A stretch of DNA of 34,677 nucleotides from Chrysochromulina parva (taxonomy: Eukaryota > Haptophyta > Prymnesiales > Chrysochromulinaceae): positions 1-34,677 of the forward strand of contig PJAB01000200.1 of NCBI GenBank assembly GCA_002887195.1, in the 5' to 3' direction. The notes under the pieces are model-generated. The model had not been told where the DNA came from and ran no database searches. It saw nothing but the letters and a program-made list of their open reading frames with translations. Position numbers and translations under genes: made by a program. Positions 2,361-33,685 of the stretch are shown one piece after another (position 1 is the first letter of the stretch; the number at the start of each line of letters is the position of its first letter).

Positions 2361-5300
2361 CTATACCAGCACCTCGAGCTCAACGTGAAGCCGCACACTC
2401 AAGTGGAGGAGCTTGGTCACCTCCTCGATGGACGCATCCATCGCGTTTTGCATCCTGCTTTGCGCCACGTCTTGCGCGGTTGCAGATTGGACACACCCGC
2501 TTTGCGGCACGAGCTCAAAGAGGAGCTCGTCGTGGCAGTGCAAGAGCAGCACCGGGTGATAGCAGGAAGGTGCGCTCCCGGGCCCCACCCCCCCGGCAAT
2601 CCGAGGGGTGAGCTTGGCAAGCAGAGCGGTGGTCACGTCAGCTGCGCACGCCCGGCAGGCGTCGCCAAGCAGCGCCGCCTCTGCAGCTGCGCGCTCGCGC
2701 TCGCACGGAGCCGCGCGTAGACTTGCGACGTGATAGCGCCCTCCGAGCGTTCGCACTCGGCCGCTGTTGTCCCTGGCCTCACGGATGAGCCGGCTGTGGT
2801 ACTCGAGGACACCGGGAAAGGCCGCGAGCAGCGAGCTGATGACAGCGAGCTGTCCAGCCGGTCTTGACGGAACAGCGAGCTCTCCAGCCGGTCTTGGCGC
2901 GAGCGCCTGGTCGCACGCGTCGACGCCGATGCCAGCGGCGTCCACGAGCTGGACATCAGAGTCGACACTGCTGCGCTCGAGGGCCCCGTGCAGCATCGCC
3001 TCCATAAGCTGATCGTGGTCAGGCTCGTGCAGTGCGGGGGGTACGACGGCGCCGCCGAGCACGCCGCCCCAGAGCCGCGCCATCACCTCCTGTACGTGCA
3101 CGCTCATGCGAGAAGGGGCCTGCGTCGCCAGCACCGCCGTGGCGGTGCTTTCGTCGTGAGCGCGCCAGTGCGCAGCGGTGGCCATGAGGATCTCCGAGGG
3201 TGTGTGCGCCAGCACGGCCTCAAGAAGTGCGCGCTCCTGGCTGCCGTGGGCGAGCAAGCGGAGCATGAGCAGCGGAAGGCGCACGCGGATCAATCTGGAT
3301 GCGCCCCCGGCGTTCGGGCGCACACAGTCGCGGAGCGCGCGAGCCAGCGAGCGCTGTGGCGAGCTCTGTGGCGGCGCGGGCGTTGGATCGTAATTGGGAT
3401 CGTAATCGGAGCCATCGGCCGCGGCCGGGGGCGTCTGGCTAGGCGACGCCTCCAGCATTGGATGCTCGATGGCGGCCAGAGTGAGGAGTGAGGCAAGCGG
3501 CAGGTGTTGCGTCACGAGCAGCCCCTGGCGCGCACACGGCACGAGGTGCAGCGCCAACGAGAGCCGTCTGCATTGCTCGCCAATGGGCGCCGTAGCGGGC
3601 GCATGCTCGCCTTCGGGTGCCGTTGCGGGCGCAGCACCCAGCGCCTCGAGGGCACGTTCTGTCACGTCGCCATCGGGCGCCGCCGCGGGCGCAGCGCACA
3701 GCGCCTCGAGGGCACGTACTGTCACATCGCTCCGTCGCCATCGATAGAGCACGCCGCTCGCCACGCAGCCGCCGAGGAAGCTCCGGTAGAGCGTCGCGTC
3801 GCTCGCGACCACCGCGCTCGGCCGGCCTTCAGCCCTGGCGCGCCGTCGGTCTGTAGGGCTCACGTAGGTGATGGGCCGGTACTCGGGCGAGCGCAGCTTC
3901 TCACCTTGCGCATGCAGCTGTGAGTCGGCGCCCAGAGCAGCGCTCAGCTGCGCGAGGGCCCACGCGTCCTCTAGCGCCTCGGTCGGTTGGGCCTCGTGCG
4001 TGCCGTCGCCTTCATCGTTCATCACGTCCTCCATCAAATCCTCCGCCTCGGCCTCCGCCTCCGCTGCGCCCACCTCCTTCGCCGCCGCCTCCGCCGCCGC
4101 CTCCTCTGCCGCCTCGTCCATCTCCTCCGTTTCGTCCAACTCCCCCGAGTAGGCGCCCACTGCCGTTGCTGCACCGTGTCCGATCGCCGGCTCCAGATCC
4201 ATCGGAACCGGTGCCACTACCCTCGTCCCTCTGCGACGTGCTCGGGCAGCGCGTGACAAGCGGGTGGCCTCACGGCGCACGCTAGCAAGTCGCAGACGCT
4301 CCGCCTCAAGCAATGCATGCAACTGCTCGACACTCAGGGCCAGCCGTGTCGGAAGGCGGCGAAGAGCGCCGTGTTGGTACCCCGGCGCCGCTGCTCCCAT
4401 CGCCGCCGCTAGTTCCAGCGCCGCCGCGTCCGCCGCCGATGCCTGCACTACCGGTACCAACCCGCTCAGCGCGGCGCTCGGCGCATCCGTCGGTACAGCG
4501 GCGGGCGCGGCGGCGGGAGCGGCGGCGGGCGCGGCGGCGGGCGCGGCGGCGGGCGCGGCGGCGGGCGCGCGCAGCAGATGAGCTGCGTGAAGCAAGGGAG
4601 AGAGGAGCTCCAACAACGGCCGATGCAGCTGCTTCTCCTTGAAGTCGACTGCCGTGCACCTAGTCCAGGCACATTCCTGCGCTGCCTGCAAGCAGCACAG
4701 CTCCTCGTCGGTACAGCCAGCGCCCGCCCTAGCCAACGGCTCGTACGCTGGCCCCTGGAGCATGAGGAGCTGCGCGAGCGTGGGGGGAACGTCGGTGGGC
4801 GTGCCGGCAGCACCGCCTGCAGCACCGCCGACGTGGCCCATGGGCGCGAGAAGGGCCGCCATCAGCCGCACGTCGAGAATCGGACCGCGCAGCTCGATCC
4901 CCTCCGCCTCCAGGAGTTCAAGCAGTTGGGTCGCGCGACAGCAGACCTTCTTGGGGCATGCCTCACTCGAGCCGTCCGCGGCGAGACGCCGCGCCAGCGC
5001 CTGCCGAGGCGACTCCACCGCGCACGCGCCTCCTACTGCCGATGCCACCGCGGCGCCCACCGCGGCGCCTTTCTCGAGAGGCAGCCAGTAGACGGTGGGG
5101 GGCCCGTAGACGGTGGTGTCCCAGCACACAGCCACTCCCGCGAGGCGCGCCGTCGCGGGTTGCGCGGGGTACACGAGTGCTGCCTCGGCCGTGGGCGGCG
5201 CATCCGCGGCGGGCGCCGTGGCGGGCGGCACATCTTCGGCGAGCGGCTCGGCGAGCGTTTCGTCCAATGGCAGCGCCACGAGGCAGAATGCTGGCTTCGC

Positions 5301-8300
5301 CTCCCACTCGCGGAGGAAGGCGATCCACGCGTCGGCATCCGTCGTGGGCGTGGCCATCGTAAAGGGTAGACGCCTGCCGACATTGGAGCCGCCGCCGCCG
5401 CCGCCGCCGCCGCTGAGCTTCGCATACAACTGCCGGAACCGGAGTCCATCAGCGCCGAGCTGATCGAGGTCATCTCTCTCGAGTTGGAGATCGAGCTGGA
5501 GCCGCTTGCGCGCCGCCTCGTGGATGAGGCGTGCATGCTTGCGCAGCATGCCTTCCTCGAGCACCGCGCCAGGCGCGCCACGCAGGGCGCGCAGGATTGC
5601 TTCGGCTCCGTCACTCGCTGCGAGCTTCTCAATGGTTCCGAGTCCGGCCCGCACGAGTGCGTGCGCGCGTGGCAGCTTGACGAACGGGAGGGCGAGCAGC
5701 GGCTTGAGGTCGTAATCGGCCGCGCCGCGCTCGAGTCGCTCTTGCCACGTGGCGATTGTGTGCGCCACGTCGCCCCACCCAAGCTCCTCGCAGAAGGTGC
5801 GCACCTGCGCTGTGTACTGTGCTGCACGCGTCTCAAGGGCTTGCAGCTGCCCCAGCTCGAGGCCGTACCGATCTGCCACGAGCTCGGGCGCGACGCCACG
5901 GTGCAGCTCGCGCAACGTGAGCGCGTCGAGGGTGCGTTGGTGAGTGCGGCGCATCTGCTGCTCGTGCGCGGTCGGCCTGGCTCCGCCGCCACCTCCGCAG
6001 CTCGCGCGCTGCACGAGCCACTCTTGCACGACGTAACCGCTCTGGTGCAGCAACTGCTTCTCGGCGGGCAGCAGCCCGCCTTCTCGGCGGATGGCTTCGT
6101 CGAGCTTGCGCCACATGATGTCGCCCGCGCCGTCCGAACGGCTCCCGTGGGAGTGACCCAGTGCACCATCGAAGGGCTCTTGCATGGGCGTGAGCAGGAT
6201 GGTCAGGTGAAGCGTAGAGTCGGTGACGAAACGCGCGAGCACCTGACGAAGCGTATGTAGCAGGTAGACGCCATCCGAGGGGCGCAAGCTGCCAAGGTAC
6301 ACCGCCTTGCCGAACAGCGTCGGCTTCCATCGCATCTCGTCGGCACTCTGAAAGAGGTTTAGCAGCGGCCGGCCTCGCTGCTGCTGCCGCTCAGCCGCGG
6401 TGCTCGCATCGACGTACGGCCTGCGCAGCCAATGGCACGCCGCATCGAGGTTGGCGTGCAGGGCCCGGCGCAGCTCAAGCCGCTCCGCACGCCCTGCCGC
6501 CGCCGCCGCCGCCGTCGCCGCCGCCGCCGCCGCCGCCGCCTCCCCGCCGCCAGCCGCCTCCGCCGCGCTCGCGGGCGCATCGGACGGCGCGGGCAGCTCC
6601 GGCACATTGCTCGTAGCGGGCTCGGCACAGAGCGCGGCGGCAAACGTCAGCTGCGCCAGCTGCTGGAGCTCCTCGGGCGTGCTAGCGATGCCGGAGGCGA
6701 CCGCTTCGAGAATGAATCGCTGGCATGCGGTCGGATGCCGCCAGAGGGGTGGCGCTGGCTCGGGTACGGCCGCCGGCCTTGCTGGCACTGGGTGCGGGGG
6801 CGGAGCCGGAGCCTCGGATGGAGGCGGCGCCTCGGATGGGGGCGGCGCCGAGGTAGCGGTCTTCAGTGCGATGGGTGCCCTGGGGGGCGGGTGGCGCCCG
6901 AGGAGAAGCGAGGTGAGTTTCGTCATCGGGCTCGCCATGAGCGCACATACCTTGTCTCGATCGCGCGGGCCCGCGACCACGAAGACCTCGCCCAGCTCGC
7001 ACAGCCCCGCACGCCCTGCGCGTCCCGCCATCTGCCGATAGCTGATCGGCTGCAGCAGCACGCCCGCCTGGTCGTACGGCGAAGGCAGGATCACGCGACG
7101 GGCGGGCAGGTTGACGCCCGCGGCGAGCGTGGTCGTCGCGCACAGCACGCGCAGCGTGCGCTTGCGGAAGGCTTCTTCAATCGCACTCTTCTCGTTGAGT
7201 CCGAGGCCCGCGTGGTGCAAGGCCACGCCGTGTGGCACGGTGCGCGTGTACAGCTCGAGGGTGCGCGCCGTGGGCGACGCGGCTCGGAGCCTCTCGAGCA
7301 GCGTGCACCGCGCAGCCATGCGAGCGGGAGTGACGAGAGCCGCCTCAGGCAGCGCGACCTCGAAGGCGCGCGCAAGCGCGTCGGCGCACTGGGCCGTCTT
7401 GGCTTTGGTCGCGCAGAAGATGAGCACCTCCGCCCCGTCGCGCACAGCTTCGCATGCGAGCGCGACCGTTGATGCCCACTCGCCCTTGCCGCTGCTGCTG
7501 CCGCCGGCGCCGGCACCGGCGCCGGCGCCGGCGCCGTTGGTGCCACCCTGGCCAGCGCCGGTGGGCGCAAGCACGGCTGCGGGCAGCAAGCTCCGCTCGT
7601 GTCGCAGAATCGCCGCAGCCTCGACGTACTGCCAAACGTCGAGAAGCTCAGTGCTGGGCTGCACGAGCGCCGTCCCGGGCGCGCCAGGTCGGGCAGACAT
7701 GCGCCCGCCACAACCCCCGCCTGTCGCCGCAGCGACCGGTGCTGGCGTCGGTAGCAGCGCGGGGGCAACGACGTACTGCGTGAGGGGCACGGGACGCTCC
7801 TCGCTCACGTATAAGGCCGCGCCGAGCCAGCTGGCGAGCACTTCGGGGTTGCCGAGCGTCGCAGACATGACGACAATCTGAGGACCACCGCCGCCGCCCT
7901 TGGTGCCGCTTCCGCTGCCATGGGTGAGGGCACGTGCCGGCGCGCTGCTCGCGGGATGGCGCGCCGCACGCATCGCGAGCTTGTGCCGCTCCGCGCGAAG
8001 CAGCGTGAGCAGGTTCTCGATCGCATGGCCGCGCGATGGGTCTGCCAGCATGTGCACCTCGTCGACTACGACGATGCCGAGCTCGCGAAGTCCTTCGGGC
8101 ATCTCGAGCATCCGATGCACCACTGCGCTCGCGCGCTCGATGGTACACACGAGCAGGTCCACGTCGCCGTCGAAGCCGTTCCGGCTGCGCGCGCCGTGGC
8201 TCGCCTCCACGCGCAGCTTGCCCGCAGCCCCCGGCCGACCGGCGCGACGGCCAGTCGTGGGCAGGCTGCGCAATAGGCGCGTGAGCCGCTCGGTGACCTC

Positions 8301-8973
8301 CTCAACCATCGAGACGTATGGCAGCACGAGCAGACCCTTCTGGCGCCGCTGCAGCGCGCGGCACAGCAGTACATCCGCGACGAGCGACTTGCCGCCAGAA
8401 GTGGGCGTCGAGTACACGAGGTTGCGCCCGTCGAGCACGCCCTCGGTACCCAACAGGCATGCATGCTGCCATGGGTAGAGGCGGTGCACGCCGAGCTCCT
8501 CGTACGCTGCCACCACCGAGGTGCGCAGCCCGCAGCCGCCCGTGCCCAGCGCCGCGCGCACGCTCAGGTGCGCGTCCGCCTCGGCCGCGCGGCTGCGCGA
8601 CTCACCTCGAGCTAGGGCGGCGGCGGTCACCTCGACCGAGGCCGACGCGTCCACGAGCGGCGAGGCAGCTACGCTCGCCGAGGCAGTGTGAAGTACCTGT
8701 GTGAAGTTCGCCGGCGCGCCGGAGATGCCGGCAGCGGAGGCGGAGGCGGGAGCGACCGCTGCGCACGGCGCGTGCGAACCGAACGGCGGAGAAGACACGC
8801 ATACAGACAGCTGGCCTGGCATGGGGGCGACGGGCGCGGCGACGGGAGCGGCCGGCGGTGGCACCTCGGCGGGAGCGACTGAGGGTCCAGTCAGGTCATC
8901 GATCCCGAGCCACCAGTCGCGGTCGTCCACCACCGTCGAGGGGTCTGATAGGGCCATGGGCTCATCGTCCGCA

Positions 8974-9039
<66 letters not shown>

Positions 9040-9743
9040 AGCGGCAGCAGTGGCGGCGGGTTTGATCGCAACAGCGCGAGCTGCGGTTGCGGGAGCGGAG
9101 TTGGTGGAAACGGCAGTGGCGGCGGCTGCGGTTGCGGACGCGGCGGTGGTGGCGACGGCGTGCGGGGTCGCTTGCGCTGGCTCGACGGCACGTGCTGCAG
9201 CGAAGACAACATCGGCGTCAGGGCTAGGGACTCGATCTGATTCGGTGGTGGCGTTGAAGGCAGCACCAGAGACGTGGGAGGAGGTGTGCTGCACGCGGAG
9301 CTCGACGAGATCTGCCGCTCCTGCTCCACGCGCTCGAGCACTTCGAGCAAGACCGCGTCCGGAAGGTCCTCCAAGAAAGTCGGTGAAGCACATGCGGCGG
9401 GTGGCAGCGGCAGCGTCGATGGCGGCTGCTCCACGGCGGATGAGAAGTTGAGCAACACGCCATCCTGCTTGCTTGCCCACGAGTCATCGTCCCAAATGAA
9501 GGTAGGACATTGCTTGCGGCCGCGAGGCATCTCCTCGCAGCGCCAGAAAAAGCGGAGGTAGTTCTCCGATTCCTGGTTGTACACCTGCCAATGCTTCATC
9601 GATGAGCGCGGATGGAGTCTGCAAGTTGGCGGCTTGCGCGCAACTTTCGGCTCAAGCTTTGGGCCGTCTGAATAAGGCCTCGCTGCCTGGAAGAGACTCG
9701 CCAGCGGGTCGTACGGCGTCGAAGTCGGCTGTGTTGCGTCCAT
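2361..9743 (-). CDS. POLQ: DNA polymerase theta-like helicase-polymerase with N-terminal GRF zinc finger
   Basis: This 2460-codon frame has the POLQ order: helicase, linker, exonuclease-like region, family-A polymerase. Residues 41-87 form a GRF-type zinc finger (C41, H44, C69, C79, then FIWDDD). A polyproline run lies near residue 240. The SF2 helicase has motif I TPTSGGKS (about 445), II DEVH (about 560), III SATLGNPE and VI QMAGRAGRAG (about 905), followed by the POLQ-like RFILEAVASGIASTPEEL and a helix-hairpin-helix segment. The C-terminal part aligns by eye to the polymerase fold and keeps motif C HDELLFE (about 2403-2409). Motif A reads VRLPLLMLRLLAH instead of ADYSQLELRILAH (Arg2155 at the catalytic Asp), and the O-helix RxxxK...YG residues are not preserved. 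POLQ acts in microhomology-mediated end joining. Here the helicase looks intact and the polymerase doubtful. No intron is needed to read the frame. Confidence 0.88.
4498..4569 (-). repeat. 12-bp coding minisatellite in the POLQ-like gene
   Basis: Six near-perfect 12-bp units (GCGGCGGGCGCG on the + strand) encode the APAA-type repeats that separate the exonuclease-like and polymerase-like regions. Each unit adds four residues, so length changes would keep the frame. Confidence 0.85.
8974..9039 (-). repeat. (GGC)22 trinucleotide run encoding polyproline
   Basis: Twenty-two uninterrupted GGC triplets on the + strand read as CCG/GCC-type codons for the long proline run near residue 240 of the POLQ-like protein, between the zinc finger and the helicase. 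A pure triplet run like this is likely to vary in length between alleles and to be difficult for assembly. Confidence 0.9.
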
Positions 9744-14075: not shown

Positions 14076-16527
14076 ATGGGTTGCTTGCCATCGTCTGTTT
14101 CGCGCGATGCTGAGCCCGACGAAGGTGAACGGATGACGACGGAAGCATCGACCGATAGAAGCTCTTCTAGCCACTGGCAGCGGCCAGCGGCGGTGAGACG
14201 GCGCAGACTCTTCTCCGGATCCCACAGAGCCTTCAACGGGGATGGCTGCGCCCAGAAGAAGACGCCTAAGACCGAAGCGGACCGTATGAGCTTGCTCGAC
14301 GCTCTGAGCGAAGGCACGCTCCTCGGCGCCCTCGCCTCGCAGGAGCTCAATGAGTTGATCGACTACATGGAAGTCGTGGTGATGCAGCAGGGTCAGAAGT
14401 GCGATCTGGGCGGTTGCCTCTGTGTCGTGCTCGAGGGCGAAGTGGAAAGAAGCTCTGGCACGCACTCGAACGATGAGAGCGGCGGTGTCTCTCAAAAGCA
14501 CATAGCGGGCGCAGTCTTTGGCCAGGTGGGACTCTTTGACAACAGCGGGTAACGGCACGCTGGACGACTCCACTTTCATTCGCCTACTAGCCCCCGGCCC
14601 TTTACATCCTCGCTCGCTTACAGGCAGTCGTGATCTCGAGTCTCGCCTTCACAGTGTCGCTGGTGGAGTGCATGCACTCGCCACCTGTCCATCCCGCCTG
14701 TGCAAGCTTCCTGGGACGGCGTATCGACGCGCCATGGAGTACACAAGACAGGCGAACATCAAGACAAACATGAGGCTGTTGAGCACCATTCCGATCTTCA
14801 ACAAGCTCACGATCGCTGAACGCCTGCAGGTAGCCGACTTGAGTGTTACACGCTCATACCAAAGGAACGAAATCATCGTGCGTGAGGGCGAAGTCGGTGA
14901 CGCCTTTTACATCCTTCGTCAGGGTGGCGCTATCGTCACACGCGGTACCAACTCTTTTGGTTTGCCCCAGCGCATCGACTACAAATACCCAGGGGATTAC
15001 TTCGGCGAGGCTGCCCTGTTAGAGGGGCTGCCACGAAATGCTACTGTCGCCGCTGCTCAGCCTGGCACAGAGGTGCTTTGCATCGAAAAGGCTCTATTCA
15101 ACGATCGACTTCTCGGCCCCTTGTCGGAGATCATGGGCCGAAGTGAGAGCACTATCCAGCAACACATGGTCGTTTCTGTGCCATTGCTCGCCCAGCTGAC
15201 AGCCGAGCGGCGTGACGCGCTTGTCGGCCGCCTCAGAATCGAAACTTTCGATCAGGGCAGATTCGTCTTTGAACAGGGCGCCCTTGGCGATCGCTTGTAC
15301 ATCATCAAAGCTGGCGAGGTCGTTGTTACTGAACGCAACGAGAGGGGTGAACAACGGCAAATCGATCACCTCTCCGTCGGCCAATGCTTTGGCGAGCGGG
15401 CCTTGCTCAAAGAGGAGCCACGTATGGCAAGCGTGCGCGCTGCGACCAAGCTGGAGTGCTATTCCCTGAGCTATCGTGATTTTGCCGAGCTCGGGCTGGC
15501 GCATGGTGTTGACTGGAGCCGCCGTTGGGACATGGAGGACACGCGCGATGTCTCACAGCTTCGCGTACTAAACGTTTTGGGTGCGGGTGCATTTGGCACG
15601 GCCTGGCTTGTGAAACACCAGAAGACTGATCGCCAGTACGCGCTGAAGGCGCTCGAGAAGCGTACGGTCATGCGCCAGAACTGGACGTATGTCGTTGTGC
15701 GCGAAAAGGAGCTGCTCCAGTCGCTCGAACCGCATCCGTTCGTGATCACGATACATAATGCCTTCCAGAGCCCGACGCATCTCTTCATGCTCATGGAACT
15801 TGCACCAGGAGGAGAACTGTTCCAGCTACTCGAGACAGTCGAGCGCTTCCCACCTGAGCAGGCTCGCTTCTTTGTCGGCTGCGTCGTCCTCGCCATCGGT
15901 CACTTGCATCGGCACGACATCGTCTTCCGAGACCTGAAGGCAGAGAATTTGCTGATCTCGGGGACAGGTTACCTAAAGCTGATCGACATGGGCTTTGCCA
16001 AGCGTCTCGCCAAGGGTGAGAAAGCCTACACGCTTTGTGGCACGCCCTATTACCTGGCGCCCGAGATGATTCTACACCAAGGCCACGGCTTTGCGCTCGA
16101 CTGGTGGACGGTGGGTGTTCTGACTTACGAGATGATTGGGGGTGGGCCACCCTTCACCGGCAATTCTGAGATGGAGGTCTACGGCAAAGTGACACGTCTC
16201 AACTACTCCTGCTCGTCCTCTCACTTTCCAGAGCATTCAATCAGCTTCATCTCACAGCTTCTCAAGAAAGAGCCCGAGATGCGCCTCGGTAGTCTCGTTG
16301 GCAAACAGCGCAACGGCGTAAACGACGTGATGGCACACGAGTGGTTTCATGGATTTAGTTGGGACGATCTGATGGGGCAACGGCTGCGGGCGAGCTACAT
16401 ACCGCCGCCTCGCACGTACAAGTGCGGCGGATCACCAGATCCTTCGAATCGAATCCTTCGTGAGAATCTTAATCTCGAGGACGTGTGCAATAGCCCGTCT
16501 GACTGCGGATACTGGGTGGGGTGGTGA
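14076..16527 (+). CDS. cyclic-nucleotide-dependent (PKG-like) AGC protein kinase, two exons
   Basis: Exons 14076-14548 and 14655-16527 join in frame to 781 residues; neither alone gives a complete first cyclic-nucleotide-binding domain. The start is chosen at MGCLPSS, a fit to N-myristoylation plus palmitoylation. A basic patch (RRRRLFSGS, residues 41-49) could be an autoinhibitory or autophosphorylation site. Three binding domains follow. The first (about 72-185, across the splice) has a degenerate phosphate cassette (FGQVGLFDNSG, no Arg). The second (FGEAALLEGLPRNATVAA) and third (FGERALLKEEPRMASVRA) keep Glu and Arg. The kinase domain begins near residue 465: glycine loop GAGAFGTAW, Lys489, catalytic FRDLKAEN (Asp584, Phe where His is usual), DMG instead of DFG (Asp602), activation segment TLCGTPYYLAPE, and an AGC tail (FHGFSWDDL). 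cGMP is more likely than cAMP as ligand because regulatory and catalytic parts are fused. Confidence 0.9.
14549..14654 (+). other. intron of the PKG-like gene (106 bp)
   Basis: The donor is AACAGCGG|GTAACG and the acceptor TTCACAG|TGTCGC. Exon 1 reaches a TAA at once if unspliced. Joining 14548 to 14655 completes a Gly codon and gives GLFDNSG then VAGGVHAL...LPGTAYRRAM, which follows the expected course of a cyclic-nucleotide-binding domain. The acceptor at 14623 gives an immediate TGA and was discarded. Confidence 0.85.
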
Positions 16528-16900: not shown

Positions 16901-19900
16901 TCAAGCCTCGAACTCGTTCAGCGCCTTGTAGCCTGAAGGCGGGGGTAACCTACTCGGCGCAACCATCCCGTAGCCGTCGGGGATGATGAGCTGATGGGTA
17001 CCGTTGGGTGAGATGCTCGTGACCCATCCCTCCTTGAGCCAGCTCGTCGCAAGCCAGCTCGAGTTGATGCCGGCGAGCATGCCCCAGGAGGCGAAGCGCA
17101 CGCGCGCGCGCTCGCGCCCCTCCTCGCCAGGCAGTTGCATCCACTTCGTCTCAAGCACCTCGACGCACGTGCCAGGCTGCACATCGCCCAAGTTGGCGCT
17201 GTTCAGCTCGGGCCCCTCGCGCAGCACGAGCGCCGTTCCGCCCACGCGCGGCCGGAGCGGGTCAAAGCCGCGAGTCGTCGTCGTCTTCGATTCGGGAGCT
17301 CGAGGGGAGAGCTTGGTGATGATGTCGGGATGCCCCATCCGCCTACGCGGGCTCAGGATGCTCAGATCGTGAATCATCTGTTGTTGCTCCTCGTCGCTCT
17401 CGGGACGGTACTCGAGAAAGAGCCGATGGAGTGGGTCGAGGCCTTTATAACCCGCAGCCGTGAGCTCAGCGTGCGTCACGCGCAGGAAGATGACAAGATC
17501 GCGCCAGTCGAACCCGCCCTCTTGAAGCTCGCGCAGCTTGTACTGCGCCGCCATCAGCTGGCGAGAGGTGAAGCCAGCGACTCGCAGCGCGCCAGCGTCG
17601 AAGCCAACCTCTTTGAGCTCAGACGGGCTGTACGCGGCGTCCTTGAGGTCGGACGCGCTGTACGAGCCCTCGAGAAGCTCTGAGAGTGTGAACCCAATCT
17701 TGCGCAGCACCTTTGCTGTGTAGCCCGCACGACGCAGCTTGGCAGTCGACCGGCCGTCCACTGCCTGCACCGCGTGATGGGGAACGCCTCCCATGCGGAT
17801 CTCGTCGAGGCTGAAGCCCTGGTTCTTCAGGTTCTTGACCGAGTAGATGCCGCGCAGGTCGGCGACCACGAAGCCATACTCCTTCAGCTCCGCCACCTCG
17901 TACTTGCCATACATTTTGAGCATAGCGACCGACCGGCCGTCAACTGCCTCAACGGCCCGTTTCGTGAAGCCCGCCTCTTCGAGCTCCACATCTGGAAAGC
18001 CGAGCTCCTTGAGCTCCTTGACGACGCTTCCCGCGTCCTTGAGCGCTTTCGCGCCGTAGCCGTAGGCCTTGAGCTCCTTAGCACTGAACCCGAGCGCGCG
18101 CAGCTGGATGGCATCGAAGCCGGCCTCGCGGAGCGCGCCCACGCCAAAGCCACATGCGATCAGATCTTTGGCGGTGAAGCCCCCGACCAGCAGCTCCTTG
18201 GCACTGTACCCGACCTCGGCAAGTTGCTTCGCATTCAGCCCGGCCTGGCGCAGCTCCCCCGCGGGTGCCCCGATCGCTCGGAGTGTGGCCACGCTGTAGC
18301 CGGCGACCACCAGATCGAGGACGGAGTAGCCCACTTTGAAGAGCGCATCGGCCAAGTAGCCGCACGCTCTCAGCTCATCGGCGAGGTACCCGCCGTCCTT
18401 GAGCTCGCGAACGGTCCAACCGCCGTCCTTCCACTCCTCGATGCGGAAGAAGACCTTTCCACGTCGCAGCTCGGTCGCCGTGATGCCGCCTCCCTTGAGC
18501 TCCTTGGCTGTGTAGCCACCTTCATCGCCGCCAACGAGGAGAGTCTTGACATCGACCCGGCCGCGAGCACCGAACGCGAGCTCGGCTGCCGTGTACCCTT
18601 GCTGCTTGAGACGCTGCGCCGTGTAGCCGGAGTCCTTGAGCACGGCGATGGGCGTGCCTGCTGCCTTGAGTTGCACCAGCGACGTACCCGCCTCCTTGAG
18701 CTCCTGCGCCGAGTACCCAGCGTTCTGCAGGTCCTCCGCCGAGTATCCGGCTCCCTGCAGGGCGTTGAGGTCGTAACCCACCTCGCGCAACAACAGCGCC
18801 GTATGCCCCGCCTTGCGGAGGTCGAGGGCTTTGTAGTTCGCCGCGAACATCTGGGCGAGCGTGTAGCCCGCATCCGTAGCTTCCTGCGCATCGTAGCCCG
18901 CATCGTAGATGCGCTGGCAATCGTAGCCCGCTCCCTTCATCTCATGCACAGTGTAGCCAGCATCATGCATCATGCCCACCTGGAAGATGAGAGCCTTGCG
19001 AAGGTCGAGCGCGGTAAACTTGGCGTCGCGGATGTCGGGGATGCGATAGCCGGCCTCTCCCAGCTCCGCCGCCTTATACTTGCCATCCTTGAGTTCAACG
19101 AGCGTGAACGCTCTCGAGTCCTTCATCTGCAGCGCCGTGTACCCACCCTCCTTGAGATCCTTAGCCTGGAACCCGAGGGACTTCATCTCGGCCGCCGTGA
19201 TCTCGGCCTCCCACATCTCCCGCGGTTTGTAGCCCAAGTCCCTGAGCTGCACCGCTTTGAAGCCGGCTTGCTTGAGCTCCTTGGCTGTGAAGCCACCCGC
19301 CTTAAGCTCGACGGCCGAGAACGCGAGGTCGAGCAGCTCCTGCACGCCGAAGCCCACATTGCGGAGAATCTCTGCGCTCAGGAGCACTCGAAAATGCGCG
19401 CGGCGCACCATGCCCTTGCTCATGAGCTGCGCGACGCCCGTCTGCCAGTTGCCGCGCTTGGCAGCACGCTTGGAGGCCGAGTTCACCTCCGCCCTCGCCT
19501 CGTTGAAGATCTTGGCCACCGCGTTGTACGAGGCGTCGATCTCGCCATCGCTCGGCTCCGGGTTGCGATTCTTGCACAGCAGCTCGTACATTGCATGCAC
19601 CTCCTTGCGTCCGGGGCCACCCTTGCTCAGAAACGGCGCCGCCGTGAGCGACTTGAGCGCCGTCTGCGGCCCGCTGCGCAGCTTGAGAATGGGTAGCGGC
19701 CATAAGGTGTTTGGGCAGATGATGAGGTTCTCGAGCGCCTCGAGTGCCTTCCGATCGGCTTGCATGACCGTGAGGAGACCCGAGAGAGCCGATCGCTCCT
19801 CGCGCTCAATTGGCGGCATCCACTCGAGGCCCGCGAGCGATAAGTCGAGGTTCTCGAGGCTGTCATTCTTACCCAGCGCGTCGACGAGGGAGACGACCTC

Positions 19901-22462
19901 GTTGTCCGAGATCTCGTACTGACACTTCCACTTGATCAGTGAGCCGCTCTTAATGGCATCGAGAGGCAGCCCGTACCCGACGTTCCACAGCTGCACCGCC
20001 TTCTTGGCCACGGGGATGCCGGCCTCGCGCGCCTCCTGCACGAGCTCGTACCACGTCTTGAGCATCGTGAGGGTCGAGATGCCGATCGATTTGGGCAGCA
20101 CGTTCACGAAGGAGCCGTCGTTGACCGCCATCAGGTTCAACTCGGTTTGGCTCGCTGTGCCAGCTCGCACATGGGAGCTGACCATGACGAGGATGACAGC
20201 CTGCATGATGCACTGCGGCAGCGCCTCGATGAGCACCTCTCCAATGATGCGGGTCGCCGCATACGCTGGCACGAACTGGCGCAACGACTCGGGCATGGGA
20301 GTGATCGGGAGGAGCCCAAACGGACCGAGGAACATGAGGAAGTCGAGGAAGAACATGCCAAACGGGAAGCTGTACAAGAAGCTGAGATAGAAGGCCGAGG
20401 ACGGGCCATAGGTGTCGTACAGGTACGGGAGCACTCGCCACCACACGACGGCAAACTGGCCCACGAGCAGGCAGGCCGAGACGAAGGCGAAGCGGAAGGC
20501 GCCCGCGCGGTAGAAGAGCATTGTCACCTGGTAGTCGGAGATGAGGTCCATGAAGTAGAGCCACATCGTGATGATGCCCGAGATGGCGTTCTTGAGAATC
20601 TTGACCCCGAGCTTGGTTGTCTCTGTGCAGCCGCCCTCACGAGCCCTTTTGGCCTCCTCCTCCGCCTCTTGCCGCGCAAGCTCCTCGAGGTCGACAGCCT
20701 CGGCTGCCTGCGTCTTGAGCGCGGCGAGGAAGTTGTTGTACGTCGCGATTTGCTTCTCGAACTTGGAGCGTCGCCCGTTGAGCTCATTCACCACTTCCGG
20801 GTCGGCCTCCTTGCCGCGCAGCCGTATCATCAGGTTGACGCCCTCGAGCTCCTCCCTCGCCTTGGTCAGTAGCGCCTGCACCTCCTCCGGGTCGGTGGCG
20901 ACCTTGGCGAGGAATCCACCGGGCGAGTCGTCCTCCACCTGGTTGTACCCTTGCTCGCGCAGCGCGCGCTGTGCAAACCATTTGTCAATATCAGCCTGGA
21001 AGAGGAAGAAGACGACAAAGTAGGCAAACAGCCCAAAGTCGACGACGACGAAGCCCAACTGGTGGGTCTGCATGAACGTGCTCGCGGCGTGGCCCGCCCA
21101 CGCCGCCCACACTGTCGGGTCAAGGTTCTGGTTGTCAAACTTGGCAGCGAACCACTTCATGGTGCTGATGAACGGCATCATCGCAAAGCCGATCAGCACG
21201 TCGAGGTCGAAGGCCTCCGAGAGGGAAATGAGTACGGTGAGCAGGACCATGAAGACCATGGAGCCCCACGCCTCGTCCGATTGCTGCTGCGCTGTCTGTC
21301 CCTGCTTGCCCTTTTTCCCCTTGCTCTTGCGCTTCCTTTCGAGCGCAAGCCGGCGCTCCTCAGCCTTTCGCTTCTCCGCCTCCTCCTTCTCCAAGAATGC
21401 CAAGAAGCTGCCCGTCTTGCCGTCGTCGGGCTTGTTCGCCTTGAAGCGAGGCAGGTACGACTTCGCAGCCACCGCCTTGAAGCGCGGCTTCGTCTTGTTC
21501 TTCTTGAAGGCGCGCAACGTCAGCACGAGCTGGCGGAACTCGGCAGCTTGCAGTGAGCCAGATGAATCTTTGTCAAAGCCTTGCAGCACCCTCGCCGTCT
21601 CGGCCGAGTCGCCCTCGAGCCCGAGCTCAAAGAGCGCCTCCTTGAGCTCCTTCGTGTCGATGTCGCCCGACTTGTTTCTATCAAACTTCTTGAAGACCTC
21701 TGAAATGTCGTCGTCGACGGCCGGGGCCGTGGCTGCTGGCGGCGCGGCCGGCGCATTTGCAGCCTGGTAGGCCCTGAGTTCGGTTACGACCTTGCGGAAC
21801 TCCTCCATCTCCAGGGTTCCTGACCGGTCTTTATCGTAGCCCTGCAGCACCTTGAGCGCAAGCGCGTCCTCAACCTCGACACCCACTTCGCGCAAGATGG
21901 CCATAAACTCCTTTGTATCGATGCAGCCGCTATTATCGTTGTCGTACTTGCGAAAGGCCTGCTCGAGCTCGTCTACGGGGGCAGCGGGCGCGGCCTCAGG
22001 TGTGGCCGCAGGCGCATCAGCCACTAATTGGCGGTACGCATCTGGCTGGCGTTTCAATGCTGGCCGTCCTGCGGCCACCTCGCATGCACGCAGCTCGCCG
22101 ACGAGCGCCCTGAACTCTACAAATTCCAAGCCACCTGTTTTAGACTTGTCGTATGCATGGAGCACCTTGGCTGCCTCGGCCGTTTCCAGCTCGACACCCA
22201 GCTCGCGCAATGCAACTGCAAGCTCCGGATTGTCGATGGATCCACTGCCGTCCACATCGTATTTCTTAAATGTCTCCTCGATGTCTTTCGACGCCTGCTC
22301 CAGTAATGTCGACTCCGATGGTGGTGCGCCTTGCCCGCCATCCGTGTCCGCCATCGACTCAAGTTCACTCCAACCTGAAAAGTCTCCTCCCCGACCAGGG
22401 TTGGTCGGCGTTCCACTGGTCGGTTCGAATTGGCGTCGGAGAGGAGGAGATCGGTTGACCAT
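16901..22462 (-). CDS. EF-hand / multi-pass membrane / decapeptide-repeat protein with SH3-like end
   Basis: A 1853-residue intronless frame. Residues about 55-330 hold three EF-hand pairs, six loops (for example DVDGSGSIDNPE, DNDNSGCIDTKE, DKDRSGTLEMEE), probably from triplication of one pair. A Lys/Glu-rich stretch precedes hydrophobic spans at about 404-425, 470-495, 625-650, 660-720 and 740-765. The span with EALPQCIMQ resembles the E...PQ pattern of XK-related scramblases, a weak resemblance. A charged, probably coiled-coil segment (about 510-600) lies between spans. One leucine-rich-repeat-like segment (SLENLDLSLAGLEW) follows. Residues about 1024-1656 are some 60 decapeptides, consensus G[YF][TS]Ax[ED]L[KR]x[AG]. 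The end (about 1730-1815) resembles a bacterial-type SH3 domain. A calcium-sensing membrane scaffold is inferred; I know no characterised homologue. An alternative start is Met37 (22354), which has a good ATGG context. Confidence 0.85.
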   Translation of the reverse strand: MVNRSPPLRRQFEPTSGTPTNPGRGGDFSGWSELESMADTDGGQGAPPSESTLLEQASKDIEETFKKYDVDGSGSIDNPELAVALRELGVELETAEAAKVLHAYDKSKTGGLEFVEFRALVGELRACEVAAGRPALKRQPDAYRQLVADAPAATPEAAPAAPVDELEQAFRKYDNDNSGCIDTKEFMAILREVGVEVEDALALKVLQGYDKDRSGTLEMEEFRKVVTELRAYQAANAPAAPPAATAPAVDDDISEVFKKFDRNKSGDIDTKELKEALFELGLEGDSAETARVLQGFDKDSSGSLQAAEFRQLVLTLRAFKKNKTKPRFKAVAAKSYLPRFKANKPDDGKTGSFLAFLEKEEAEKRKAEERRLALERKRKSKGKKGKQGQTAQQQSDEAWGSMVFMVLLTVLISLSEAFDLDVLIGFAMMPFISTMKWFAAKFDNQNLDPTVWAAWAGHAASTFMQTHQLGFVVVDFGLFAYFVVFFLFQADIDKWFAQRALREQGYNQVEDDSPGGFLAKVATDPEEVQALLTKAREELEGVNLMIRLRGKEADPEVVNELNGRRSKFEKQIATYNNFLAALKTQAAEAVDLEELARQEAEEEAKRAREGGCTETTKLGVKILKNAISGIITMWLYFMDLISDYQVTMLFYRAGAFRFAFVSACLLVGQFAVVWWRVLPYLYDTYGPSSAFYLSFLYSFPFGMFFLDFLMFLGPFGLLPITPMPESLRQFVPAYAATRIIGEVLIEALPQCIMQAVILVMVSSHVRAGTASQTELNLMAVNDGSFVNVLPKSIGISTLTMLKTWYELVQEAREAGIPVAKKAVQLWNVGYGLPLDAIKSGSLIKWKCQYEISDNEVVSLVDALGKNDSLENLDLSLAGLEWMPPIEREERSALSGLLTVMQADRKALEALENLIICPNTLWPLPILKLRSGPQTALKSLTAAPFLSKGGPGRKEVHAMYELLCKNRNPEPSDGEIDASYNAVAKIFNEARAEVNSASKRAAKRGNWQTGVAQLMSKGMVRRAHFRVLLSAEILRNVGFGVQELLDLAFSAVELKAGGFTAKELKQAGFKAVQLRDLGYKPREMWEAEITAAEMKSLGFQAKDLKEGGYTALQMKDSRAFTLVELKDGKYKAAELGEAGYRIPDIRDAKFTALDLRKALIFQVGMMHDAGYTVHEMKGAGYDCQRIYDAGYDAQEATDAGYTLAQMFAANYKALDLRKAGHTALLLREVGYDLNALQGAGYSAEDLQNAGYSAQELKEAGTSLVQLKAAGTPIAVLKDSGYTAQRLKQQGYTAAELAFGARGRVDVKTLLVGGDEGGYTAKELKGGGITATELRRGKVFFRIEEWKDGGWTVRELKDGGYLADELRACGYLADALFKVGYSVLDLVVAGYSVATLRAIGAPAGELRQAGLNAKQLAEVGYSAKELLVGGFTAKDLIACGFGVGALREAGFDAIQLRALGFSAKELKAYGYGAKALKDAGSVVKELKELGFPDVELEEAGFTKRAVEAVDGRSVAMLKMYGKYEVAELKEYGFVVADLRGIYSVKNLKNQGFSLDEIRMGGVPHHAVQAVDGRSTAKLRRAGYTAKVLRKIGFTLSELLEGSYSASDLKDAAYSPSELKEVGFDAGALRVAGFTSRQLMAAQYKLRELQEGGFDWRDLVIFLRVTHAELTAAGYKGLDPLHRLFLEYRPESDEEQQQMIHDLSILSPRRRMGHPDIITKLSPRAPESKTTTTRGFDPLRPRVGGTALVLREGPELNSANLGDVQPGTCVEVLETKWMQLPGEEGRERARVRFASWGMLAGINSSWLATSWLKEGWVTSISPNGTHQLIIPDGYGMVAPSRLPPPSGYKALNEFEA
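17493..19393 (-). repeat. about 60 tandem 30-bp units encoding decapeptides
   Basis: The coding strand repeats every 30 bp, each unit encoding a form of GYTAKELKEA. Units are diverged at DNA and protein level, so the array is old or under selection, not a recent expansion. Two irregular blocks containing AVDGRS (for example EAVDGRSVAMLK and QAVDGRSTAKLR) sit some 70 residues apart and mark a longer-range duplication. Confidence 0.9.
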
Positions 22463-31183: not shown

Positions 31184-33685
31184 CTAAACAAACTCCACGG
31201 ACTTCTCCGCGGTGGCTGCCTGAACAGATGAAAGATCGGCCTTCTGATAAGGCCTTGTGTCCCTGATACGCAGCTTAGACAACTTGTACGACTGCGAGGA
31301 GGTGTGGCGGCGCGCAGTGGCGACGAGGAGCGTCGTGAGCGGCGGCACGTAGAGCTGGAGGTTGACGTCAGCATAGTCAAGTTCGCGAAAGGCCACCTCC
31401 TCACGCGAAGCGGGCGTGCCCGTTGGGCTCGCTGACAAGTTCGTTTCCAAGGCGGCCCCGGAGTGCCGCGGCTTAAGCTTGAGGCGATGCCGAGTCACCT
31501 TGAATGCAGTGACGAAGACAAGGGCGAAGGCAGCCGAGAACACGAGCATGGCAAACGCAAGTGCGACGGCGGGGCTGCGCAGGGTCGCGTCGAGCTCGAC
31601 GGAGCTGTGAAGGAGGCCACCGTGAAGGAGGCCGCGGTTCTCGAGCTCCATATGGTAGGCCATGAAGAAGCCAAGGAGGCAGTGGAGCATGAGCGCCGCG
31701 GGGAGCACCTGAGTGACTGCAGCGTCGTACATCTTGTCTGACGAGCTGACGATCCCCTTGAACCTGCACAGGGCACGATCGGACGCGCGAGGTGAGCAGG
31801 AAGAACGCAAACAGGGGTTTGGCGAAGGTTCACGTCTCCCTCGATCGGACGTGCGGAACAGCCCGGATTCGTCTACGACCACGCTCATGGCGAGATAGAC
31901 AAGCACCAGCAGGAAGAAGACAGGGAAGGAGTAACTCCACGCGAGGCCGTAGACGAGCTGCTTGAGAAGCAGCTGCATCCGAAAGGGCAGGTAGAGGGGA
32001 TTCTCGGCGGCATACACACGATTCATTTGCTCCTGTGCCATCGCACGCGGCGCGAGGAGCGTCTTGGCGATGAGCACGTCGAAGATACGCATGCCCTCGA
32101 CGAACGGGTTGATGAAGAATATGTCCGCGAGCACCATCGAGATGACTGTGGTCGCCCCGCCATTCGTGTACCACGCGCGATCGAAAAAGCCTCTAGCGCC
32201 AACCTGCTTGGTCCAAAGGAATGAGAGAGCCGCGGCAAAGGAGTTGACTAGCTGGAAAAAGGTGAGCTTCATCGCGAGCTGCGTCTCGCGATGGTCGAGG
32301 CGGATGTCGCGCTCGAAGAACTCTGCGTACGCCGGCGCTGTGAGGAAAATGAGCAGGTTGGAGAGGATGATGACGAGCGTCGTCCACAGCGTCGTGCCCA
32401 GCTTGGTCGACGAGTTCACATCCAGCGTGTCGGCCACGTTCATGTTGGTCACCTGGACAATGGCGTACGTAGAGAGGGTACACTGGAGCAGCAAGATGCT
32501 GTTGACGATCCAGCGCCTGCAGACGCGTGAGCCAAGTGAGAACTGCAGATTTTCCCATAGCACCTGGCTGGGTGGCGGTGGCACCGACGCCTTGAGCGAG
32601 ACACGCACGTCGACAATACCGCCGCCATGCAAGCTCTTCAGCATGAGCGTGCGCTGCGGGTTCTTGCGAAGGTCGAGCATGCACGCGCCCGCGTCCGCAG
32701 GATAGTTGAATGTCACGAAGCCGACGCCAGCGCACGAAGCACGCTCGTTCACAGGCCGATTGCAAAGCGCGTCAATTTCGGCGCCGATGCACTTGAGCTT
32801 TGCCTCAACCTTGGCGCGCGCGGCCAGGCGATCGCTTCCGAGCGGCGCTCGGTGCGCCGCGATTCGATAGTAATGGAGCTGCATCTTCAGATCCTGCTGC
32901 ACGCGCAAGAGCTGCAGATGCTTGCGGTTGGCGCGCGCCAACGAGCAGCAGACCACGTCGCCATACGCACCCAACAGCTGTCGCAGCGCTGTGACGAGAC
33001 TTTCGAAGCTAAGCGAAGGATCGCGCGGGAGACCCTCGATCATCACCGTGTAGTCTATCACCGAACGCTTGGTCCCGCGGCGTGGGTTGAGTTCAGCGGC
33101 CACGGCGCGGTTCGAGCGGGCGCAGTAGCAAAGGATGACCATGGCGAGAAGGACGATAACCGCGTCGGGCAGCCCGTGCGCGAGCACCGACAGCTCGTCT
33201 GAATTGCCGAGCGAATGCACCACGTAGACGGCTGCTTCGGCGCCCTTCGCCTTCGTTCCCGTCAGATTGTAGATGAGCGGCACGAGTGAAACGAGGACAA
33301 GCGGTAGAATCAGATTCCGACCGCCACGCACCATGCGCATGTAGAGGGCAATGCCAACTCCAAGACGATAGTACGCGCTGAAGCCCGGGACCGGAGCGCC
33401 ATCGCGCCAGCTGCGGCATGGTTCCGTTAGTGGCTTGCACCGGTAGAGCCTGCCGTCGTCAGCATGTGGCATGCGATCATCGGCCATTCGCATGGCAAGC
33501 TCGAGGTTCAGCGGCATGCGGTAGGCAAGACGAAGCCTGTACTCGAACTGAATCCGCTGTGCCGCGCGCTGCTTGCCAATCGATGGCTCTTCGGCCGATG
33601 CCATCTCGCAGATCCTTGGGGAAAGGGTGTCGGCGACGGGGGAAACAATGGTGCTGGTCGAGGTGTTCTGTTGTAACTCAGCCAT
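31184..33685 (-). CDS. OSCA/TMEM63 (CSC1-like) cation channel
   Basis: The 833-residue frame matches the OSCA/TMEM63 family, ion channels opened by membrane tension or hyperosmotic stress. An N-terminal hydrophobic span (LILPLVLVSLVPLIYNL, about 124-140) and a second (AVIVLLAMVILCY) precede the long cytosolic loop. The loop opens with the family's DYTVMIEGLP and contains GVGFVTFNYPADA, an RRM-like fold. SQVLWENLQFSLGSR is the usual lead into the pore module. The spans that follow include VNSILLLQCTLSTYAIVQV, WTTLVIILSNLLIFLTAPAY, KLTFFQLVNSFAAALSFLW, TTVISMVLADIFFINPFVEG, LVYGLAWSYSFPVFFLLVLV, VLPAALMLHCLLGFFMAY and LAFAMLVFSAAFALVFVTAF. ERDIRLDHRETQLAMK lies between spans. A polar Ser/Arg/Cys stretch of 29 residues before FKGIVSSSDKMYD may be an unspliced intron (31764-31850). 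Convergent with the phosphatase-like gene. Confidence 0.88.
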   Translation of the reverse strand: MAELQQNTSTSTIVSPVADTLSPRICEMASAEEPSIGKQRAAQRIQFEYRLRLAYRMPLNLELAMRMADDRMPHADDGRLYRCKPLTEPCRSWRDGAPVPGFSAYYRLGVGIALYMRMVRGGRNLILPLVLVSLVPLIYNLTGTKAKGAEAAVYVVHSLGNSDELSVLAHGLPDAVIVLLAMVILCYCARSNRAVAAELNPRRGTKRSVIDYTVMIEGLPRDPSLSFESLVTALRQLLGAYGDVVCCSLARANRKHLQLLRVQQDLKMQLHYYRIAAHRAPLGSDRLAARAKVEAKLKCIGAEIDALCNRPVNERASCAGVGFVTFNYPADAGACMLDLRKNPQRTLMLKSLHGGGIVDVRVSLKASVPPPPSQVLWENLQFSLGSRVCRRWIVNSILLLQCTLSTYAIVQVTNMNVADTLDVNSSTKLGTTLWTTLVIILSNLLIFLTAPAYAEFFERDIRLDHRETQLAMKLTFFQLVNSFAAALSFLWTKQVGARGFFDRAWYTNGGATTVISMVLADIFFINPFVEGMRIFDVLIAKTLLAPRAMAQEQMNRVYAAENPLYLPFRMQLLLKQLVYGLAWSYSFPVFFLLVLVYLAMSVVVDESGLFRTSDRGRREPSPNPCLRSSCSPRASDRALCRFKGIVSSSDKMYDAAVTQVLPAALMLHCLLGFFMAYHMELENRGLLHGGLLHSSVELDATLRSPAVALAFAMLVFSAAFALVFVTAFKVTRHRLKLKPRHSGAALETNLSASPTGTPASREEVAFRELDYADVNLQLYVPPLTTLLVATARRHTSSQSYKLSKLRIRDTRPYQKADLSSVQAATAEKSVEFV
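31764..31850 (-). other. candidate in-frame 87-bp intron in the OSCA/TMEM63 gene
   Basis: On the minus strand it begins GTCCGATCGAGG and ends CCCTGTGCAG. Its removal keeps the frame and changes VVDESGLFRTSDRGR...CRFKGIV to VVDESGLFRTFKGIV. The deleted residues are polar and Cys/Ser/Arg-rich, unlike the flanking membrane segments. The donor is GTCC, which is weak. CGTCCGATCG occurs at the 5' end and again inside, 66 bp away. Confidence 0.35.

Follow-up and report, generated by a model that had tools for sequence, protein, structure and literature searches.

A predicted Chrysochromulina parva protein joining EF-hands, an XKR-like membrane core and a decapeptide array

Contig PJAB01000200.1 of the Chrysochromulina parva assembly GCA_002887195.1, taken here over its whole length of 34,677 nucleotides (the window), carries on its minus strand an open reading frame of 1853 residues (P0001; 16901..22462) in which calcium-binding, membrane and repeat modules follow one another: six EF-hands, a hydrophobic three-helix module, a helical loop, a membrane core resembling the N-terminal half of XK-related (XKR) proteins, a leucine-rich-repeat-like stretch, a decapeptide array and an SH3b-like domain. 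This fusion of modules is well supported by the sequence. As a whole, the protein is best explained as a Ca2+-controlled, lipid-handling protein of the XKR type, tethered through its decapeptides, with a probability of about 0.4. Its multi-pass core would represent only the first structural half of an XKR protein (transmembrane segments TM1 to TM4, with IH1 partly inserted) and would handle phospholipids, most likely by scrambling them between leaflets. Ca2+ bound by the six EF-hands, which would be cytosolic, and possibly also by a buried acidic site between TM1 and TM3, would control movement or clustering of the core. A homodimer would perhaps stand in for the two-repeat XKR protein, and the decapeptide superhelix of ∼600 residues, together with the SH3b-like end, would reach into the cytosol to anchor or load the core.

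Reading frame and family

The sequence-only reading of this stretch had proposed a single uninterrupted frame with these modules in this order; the frame (22462..16901) is indeed open throughout, and domain, hydropathy and model mapping agree with the order. A public protein, P0002 (1818 aa), matches 98% of the query at 99% identity and begins at Met37 (22352..22354, minus strand), a likely alternative start codon, so that translation may actually begin at 22354. It is highly improbable that the frame merges more than one gene or transcript. Nothing in the 1853-residue frame, which lacks interruption along its whole length, was seen to point to separate genes, and six further frames in the genome likewise have decapeptides behind a core, among which that of contig C502 also carries EF-hands in front. 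Two MMETSP proteins argue in the same direction: P0025 joins core and decapeptides, and P0055 joins EF-hands and core, its end diverging ahead of any decapeptide.

The protein is not a single-gene oddity, which is ruled out by its many relatives. The core motif is present in 30 of the 49 proteins collected (window protein included), the 29 besides the window protein all listing PF25296, and a second search yielded 26 proteins, 25 of them new. The nearest named relative, P0025 from Haptolina brevifila, presumably also a haptophyte, aligns with 62% of the query at 40% identity. In the C. parva genome itself (45.07 Mb, 2199 contigs, the window being contig C200), PF25296 matches occur on at least 26 contigs, and core and decapeptides share one frame seven times (C200, C177, C346, C628, C1622, C380 and C502); the decapeptide regions of 25 further contigs among those listed were fetched in part, with no frame returned for C1534, C1394, C1383, C1752, C1828 and C557. 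Sought among the other proteins collected, the best blastp partners are P0027 for C177, P0030 for both C346 and C628, P0021 for C1622, P0028 for C380 and P0003 for C502 (98% identity). The core tree places C177 with P0027 (100/100), C1622 with P0022 (95/82) and the window protein with P0003 (93/91), the remaining own-genome copies being placed on weaker support. The earlier statement that no characterised protein has such an order must therefore be qualified, since the decapeptides belong to a described family and many relatives share core and decapeptides. In the available parts of open-licence papers on XK-related proteins, scramblases, protists and haptophytes, no report of such an XKR/EF-hand/decapeptide fusion was found.

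Membrane core and its likeness to XKR proteins

In the predicted model, residues 613-820 (20003..20626, minus strand) form a TM1-TM2-IH1-TM3-TM4 core that is a good match to the fold of the XKR N-terminal domain. XKR scramblases (XKR8, XKR9, Xkr4; PF09815) likewise carry a DxxxD pair on TM1 and an ExxxExxPQ motif on TM3. In the window protein these are D639 and D643 on TM1 (DLISD; 20534..20548, minus strand), the counterparts of XKR8 D26 and D30, and E742, E746, P749 and Q750 on TM3 (20213..20239, minus strand), the counterparts of E137, E141, P144 and Q145; local spacings are equal in the two proteins, and the six XKR8 residues are invariant in 17 aligned sequences. The EALPQCIMQ segment already singled out from the sequence lies at residues 746-754. 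Conservation was followed in a 34-row alignment comprising the window protein, 21 proteins with an E[AS][LF]PQ motif and 12 of the 25 from the second search. E742, E746, P749 and Q750 occur in all 34 rows, a count that for E746-Q750 holds partly by choice because the motif helped to pick 21 of the rows, and among the 31 rows with a letter at the TM1 positions D643 is found in all and D639 in 30.

In Xkr4, D123 and D127 (TM1) and E310 (TM3) are described as Ca2+ ligands, and scrambling is lost when they are changed to alanine (PMC10495444). From the surrounding residues (T307, E310 and S311 in Xkr4, T138, E141 and S/T142 in XKR8), we infer that E310 probably corresponds to E746. The near-general retention of these acidic residues goes beyond the need of a plain anchor. 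It thus counts against a tentative but credible alternative, in which the protein would be a Ca2+-responsive scaffold or tether that scrambles no lipid itself, the core being an anchor or a partner for lipid transfer or channel proteins and the solenoid the working part. XK has been reported as a partner of the lipid transfer protein VPS13A, which suits this alternative, but the title of the same paper calls XK itself a lipid scramblase (PMC9436381).

The earlier suggestion of an XK-related membrane part is supported by predicted fold and residue pattern, for the N-terminal half of XKR only; these two carry the conclusion, and PF09815 scores of relatives and paralogues are added support. The window protein itself gives no PF09815 match at E<=1. 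The cut-out core of the relative P0027 reaches 25.5 bits (cut-off 24.8) against 20.1 for the full-length protein, and the paralogue on C177 scores 28.2 bits, above the cut-off only with its frame neighbours, against 18.2 as a whole protein. Across the C. parva genome the XK-related profile finds six places at E<=1, of which four belong to frames with decapeptides (E between 0.013 and 0.58) and none lies on C200, C380 or C502. In decapeptide-bearing proteins the XK-related stretches extend no further than position 168 of 337. A separate XK-related protein without decapeptides is encoded on C71 (L013:1697-5068:+; 42.8 bits, above the Pfam cut-off); by eye it keeps DxxxD and ExxxExxPQ, with further hydrophobic spans behind and a weak RING-like match near its end.

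Several results weigh against the XKR assignment. The hhalign comparison of the core with XKR8 is weak, and its alignment in global mode was meaningless; a reciprocal hmmsearch, set against shuffled and reversed controls, is also weak for the link; and in a Foldseek search with the whole 626-residue model, no XKR protein is among the best 50 of 136 matches. The membrane model does match A0A5J6VJI9 in BFVD, a Megaviridae environmental protein of 591 aa (E 5.7e-4, probability 1.00, TM-score 0.25-0.27), which on structural grounds is a possible giant-virus relative; when viral contigs were scanned with the core profile, 18 places fitted the pattern but none was confirmed as a relative.

Differences from known XKR proteins are also evident. 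XKR9 is built from two four-span repeats, whereas in the window protein no hydropathy span is found beyond residue 761 outside the decapeptides, and in the model TM4 (784-814) is followed only by short elements and a pair of helices directly ahead of them. The L of the XKR9 'PQL' is not kept (PQC here). Relative to XKR, the window protein adds a front three-helix module, EF-hands, a leucine-rich-repeat-like segment, decapeptides and the SH3b-like end. The front module (residues 396-487; 21002..21277, minus strand) is delimited by hydropathy and model; no XKR match was found for it, although the module was not folded alone, and it could be a strongly diverged counterpart of the second XKR repeat. 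The claim of several membrane spans stands as far as six hydropathy stretches are concerned (residues 402-761, threshold 1.3), but hydropathy alone misses TM1 and TM4 of the model. Because no second repeat was found after TM4 and there is an extra front module, the protein is treated here not as an ordinary XKR but as a variant whose domain resembles the N-terminal one of XKR. The resemblance of the core to the N-terminal half of XKR is good, with the proviso that it concerns a predicted model, and scrambling, reported for XKR4, 8 and 9, is here predicted only.

EF-hands and decapeptide arrays

The six EF-hands form three pairs in residues 57-317 (21512..22294, minus strand; Pfam and loop residues), with loops starting at residues 69, 105, 174, 210, 261 and 297. 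All six loops fit the canonical Ca2+-binding pattern and the three pairs are similar, as the sequence-only reading had it in describing three near-copies. Centrin- and calmodulin-type EF-hands have the same canonical loops, and centrin and calmodulin chains match the window protein, which differs from them in having three tandem pairs at the N-terminus of a membrane protein. Judged by a strict loop pattern, EF-hands are present in 17 of the 39 family sequences examined, a non-random sample that includes P0055, P0059 and P0061 for their EF matches and omits P0064 (N-terminal EF-hands) and P0067, P0069, P0070 and P0073 (EF-hands by domain list); many of the 22 EF-less sequences are truncated at the front. 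Four of the 17 have them at the N-terminus (window protein, P0003, P0027 and C177). In the other 13, placed by distance to the PQ motif and membrane spans, a pair lies in the loop just ahead of the core, which in the window protein is modelled with helices (residues 488-612; 20627..21001, minus strand). EF-hands would thus have moved between, or been lost from, two places on the same, cytosolic side, with Ca2+ as the probable functional input.

The decapeptides occupy residues 1027-1660 (17483..19384, minus strand; Pfam, repeat scoring, model). In the Pfam scan they match PF25296 (Decapeptide repeat region) in ten stretches (E=8.6e-151, 490.6 bits against a curated cut-off of 45), and lag-ten identity over residues 1016-1665 is 0.287, whereas 500 shuffles average 0.078 and never exceed 0.106. 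The earlier estimate of about 60 units agrees with a purpose-made scorer, which finds 60 in residues 1027-1659, a number that is only approximate because the scorer is lax (62 further calls elsewhere, mostly low-scoring). The regular solenoid that had been expected also appears in an AlphaFold2 model built from 24 sequences, where most units consist of a helix of six residues joined to a loop of four (pLDDT 82-93 for almost every ten-residue block, pTM only 0.39). On this prediction helices are favoured over a beta-helix, the model giving short helices instead. Pentapeptide_4 is above its cut-off in several paralogues and other decapeptide arrays. No credible fold match for the decapeptide part is among the matches listed, which is no proof of a new fold: only 8cwy and 8cws, two designed crystals, have Foldseek E < 0.001, with TM-scores of 0.04-0.06.

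The best PDB match of the region is IcmE/DotG of type IVB secretion (NF033900; 7muc), whose decapeptide region is alike (phmmer E=1.6e-68, residues 1024-1502). The repeat is thus common to DotG, but the protein is not DotG, because its 418.6 bits to NCBIfam NF033900 fall short of the cut-off of 750. A DotG homologue as a whole was rejected on this score and on the absence of PF03743 (IcmE/DotG C-terminal domain, presumably of the VirB10/TrbI type) from its Pfam table at E<=1; PF03743 is listed for P0042 and P0044, two of the search matches. In its place the window protein has a multi-pass membrane core and EF-hands, to which the PF25296 array is fused. According to one study, penta-peptide repeats are placed by tomography in the stalk, and the Dot/Icm map holds an unassigned beta-helix, for which a link to DotG is tempting with no register found (PMC7511231); IcmE/DotG is listed with 30-bp repeats in another (PMC2639597). 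In open-licence literature, the decapeptide-repeat papers listed include no title, as far as these are given, on this repeat in algae, and no paper linking DotG to decapeptide or pentapeptide terms was found.

Decapeptide arrays also occur on channels. Contigs C66 (L045:805-6984:+, 2060 aa) and C67 (L025:1217-7723:+, 2169 aa) each encode four Ion_trans stretches and an N-terminal array in one open frame; C67 exceeds the 26.8-bit cut-off for the GPHH motif of L-type Ca2+ channels (28.5 bits), and C66 stays just below it (26.6). No membrane-protein family was found in the decapeptide frames of C1015, C940, C1625, C701, C179, C974, C266, C2146, C861 and C1682. Being found on an XKR-like core and on voltage-gated channels, the arrays appear from sequence to be attached to two or more kinds of membrane protein here, and they also occur elsewhere. 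Ankyrin repeats likewise decorate varied proteins. A 7267-aa open frame on C557 has a decapeptide match, and two metagenome proteins, P0034 and P0040, have long arrays attached to another kind of multi-span protein, one whose spans are separated by an RRM-like domain and which might be OSCA/TMEM63-like.

The scaffold alternative gains from these two four-domain channels and from the array being longer than the core. A calcium-gated scaffold or tether is possible; a Ca2+-regulated lipid-handling protein with a tether is somewhat more likely because of the XKR resemblance. By analogy with ankyrin repeats, which act as springs on some channels, the superhelix might instead pull on the core as part of a mechanically gated device. 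The long regular solenoid predicted and the channels carrying the same repeat fit this idea, but it is improbable, as the EF-hands point to Ca2+ and not to force as the input. The lipid-handling reading also has a more specific form, itself rather unlikely: the protein would be a half-XKR with one repeat, retaining the Ca2+ 'glue' site and working as a homodimeric, EF-hand-controlled scramblase, and decapeptides would be a general cytosolic tether for lipid- and ion-handling proteins.

Other features and implications

Between core and array, a short leucine-rich-repeat-like segment (residues 840-960; 19583..19945, minus strand) is suggested with low confidence by model and Foldseek; its match to tropomodulin has a probability of 0.69 but an E of 0.88. 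The SH3-like end proposed earlier is suggested by fold comparison (SH3b-like domain, residues 1736-1838; 16949..17257, minus strand), but its Pfam SH3_3 score is under the cut-off (14.3 against 27 bits). The VIA-align structure matches fall on this end and not on the decapeptides.

Elsewhere in the window, the minus strand carries an 833-aa gene (31184-33685) with a PHM7_cyt match, which we take to be of the OSCA/CSC1/TMEM63 type, above cut-off only with frame neighbours, and a 2460-aa DNA polymerase theta-like frame (2361-9743; DEAD helicase, POLQ helical domain, DNA_pol_A). The plus strand encodes a PKG-like protein kinase with two cyclic-nucleotide-binding stretches (14518-16527) and a protein combining an EF-hand pair with two WW domains (2-1744).

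Xkr4, Xkr8 and Xkr9 are described as activated by caspases and dependent on extracellular Ca2+ (PMC10495444). Lipid scrambling by the core of the window protein, if it occurs, would make this an XKR-type scramblase that carries its own cytosolic Ca2+ sensor, and a one-repeat version for probing how the XKR fold moves lipids. Should the half-XKR form hold, the two-repeat scramblase of animals could exist as a one-repeat unit. PF25296 repeats, recognised here through their match to a bacterial secretion protein, are moreover found in a single genome on several kinds of membrane protein, voltage-gated channels included.
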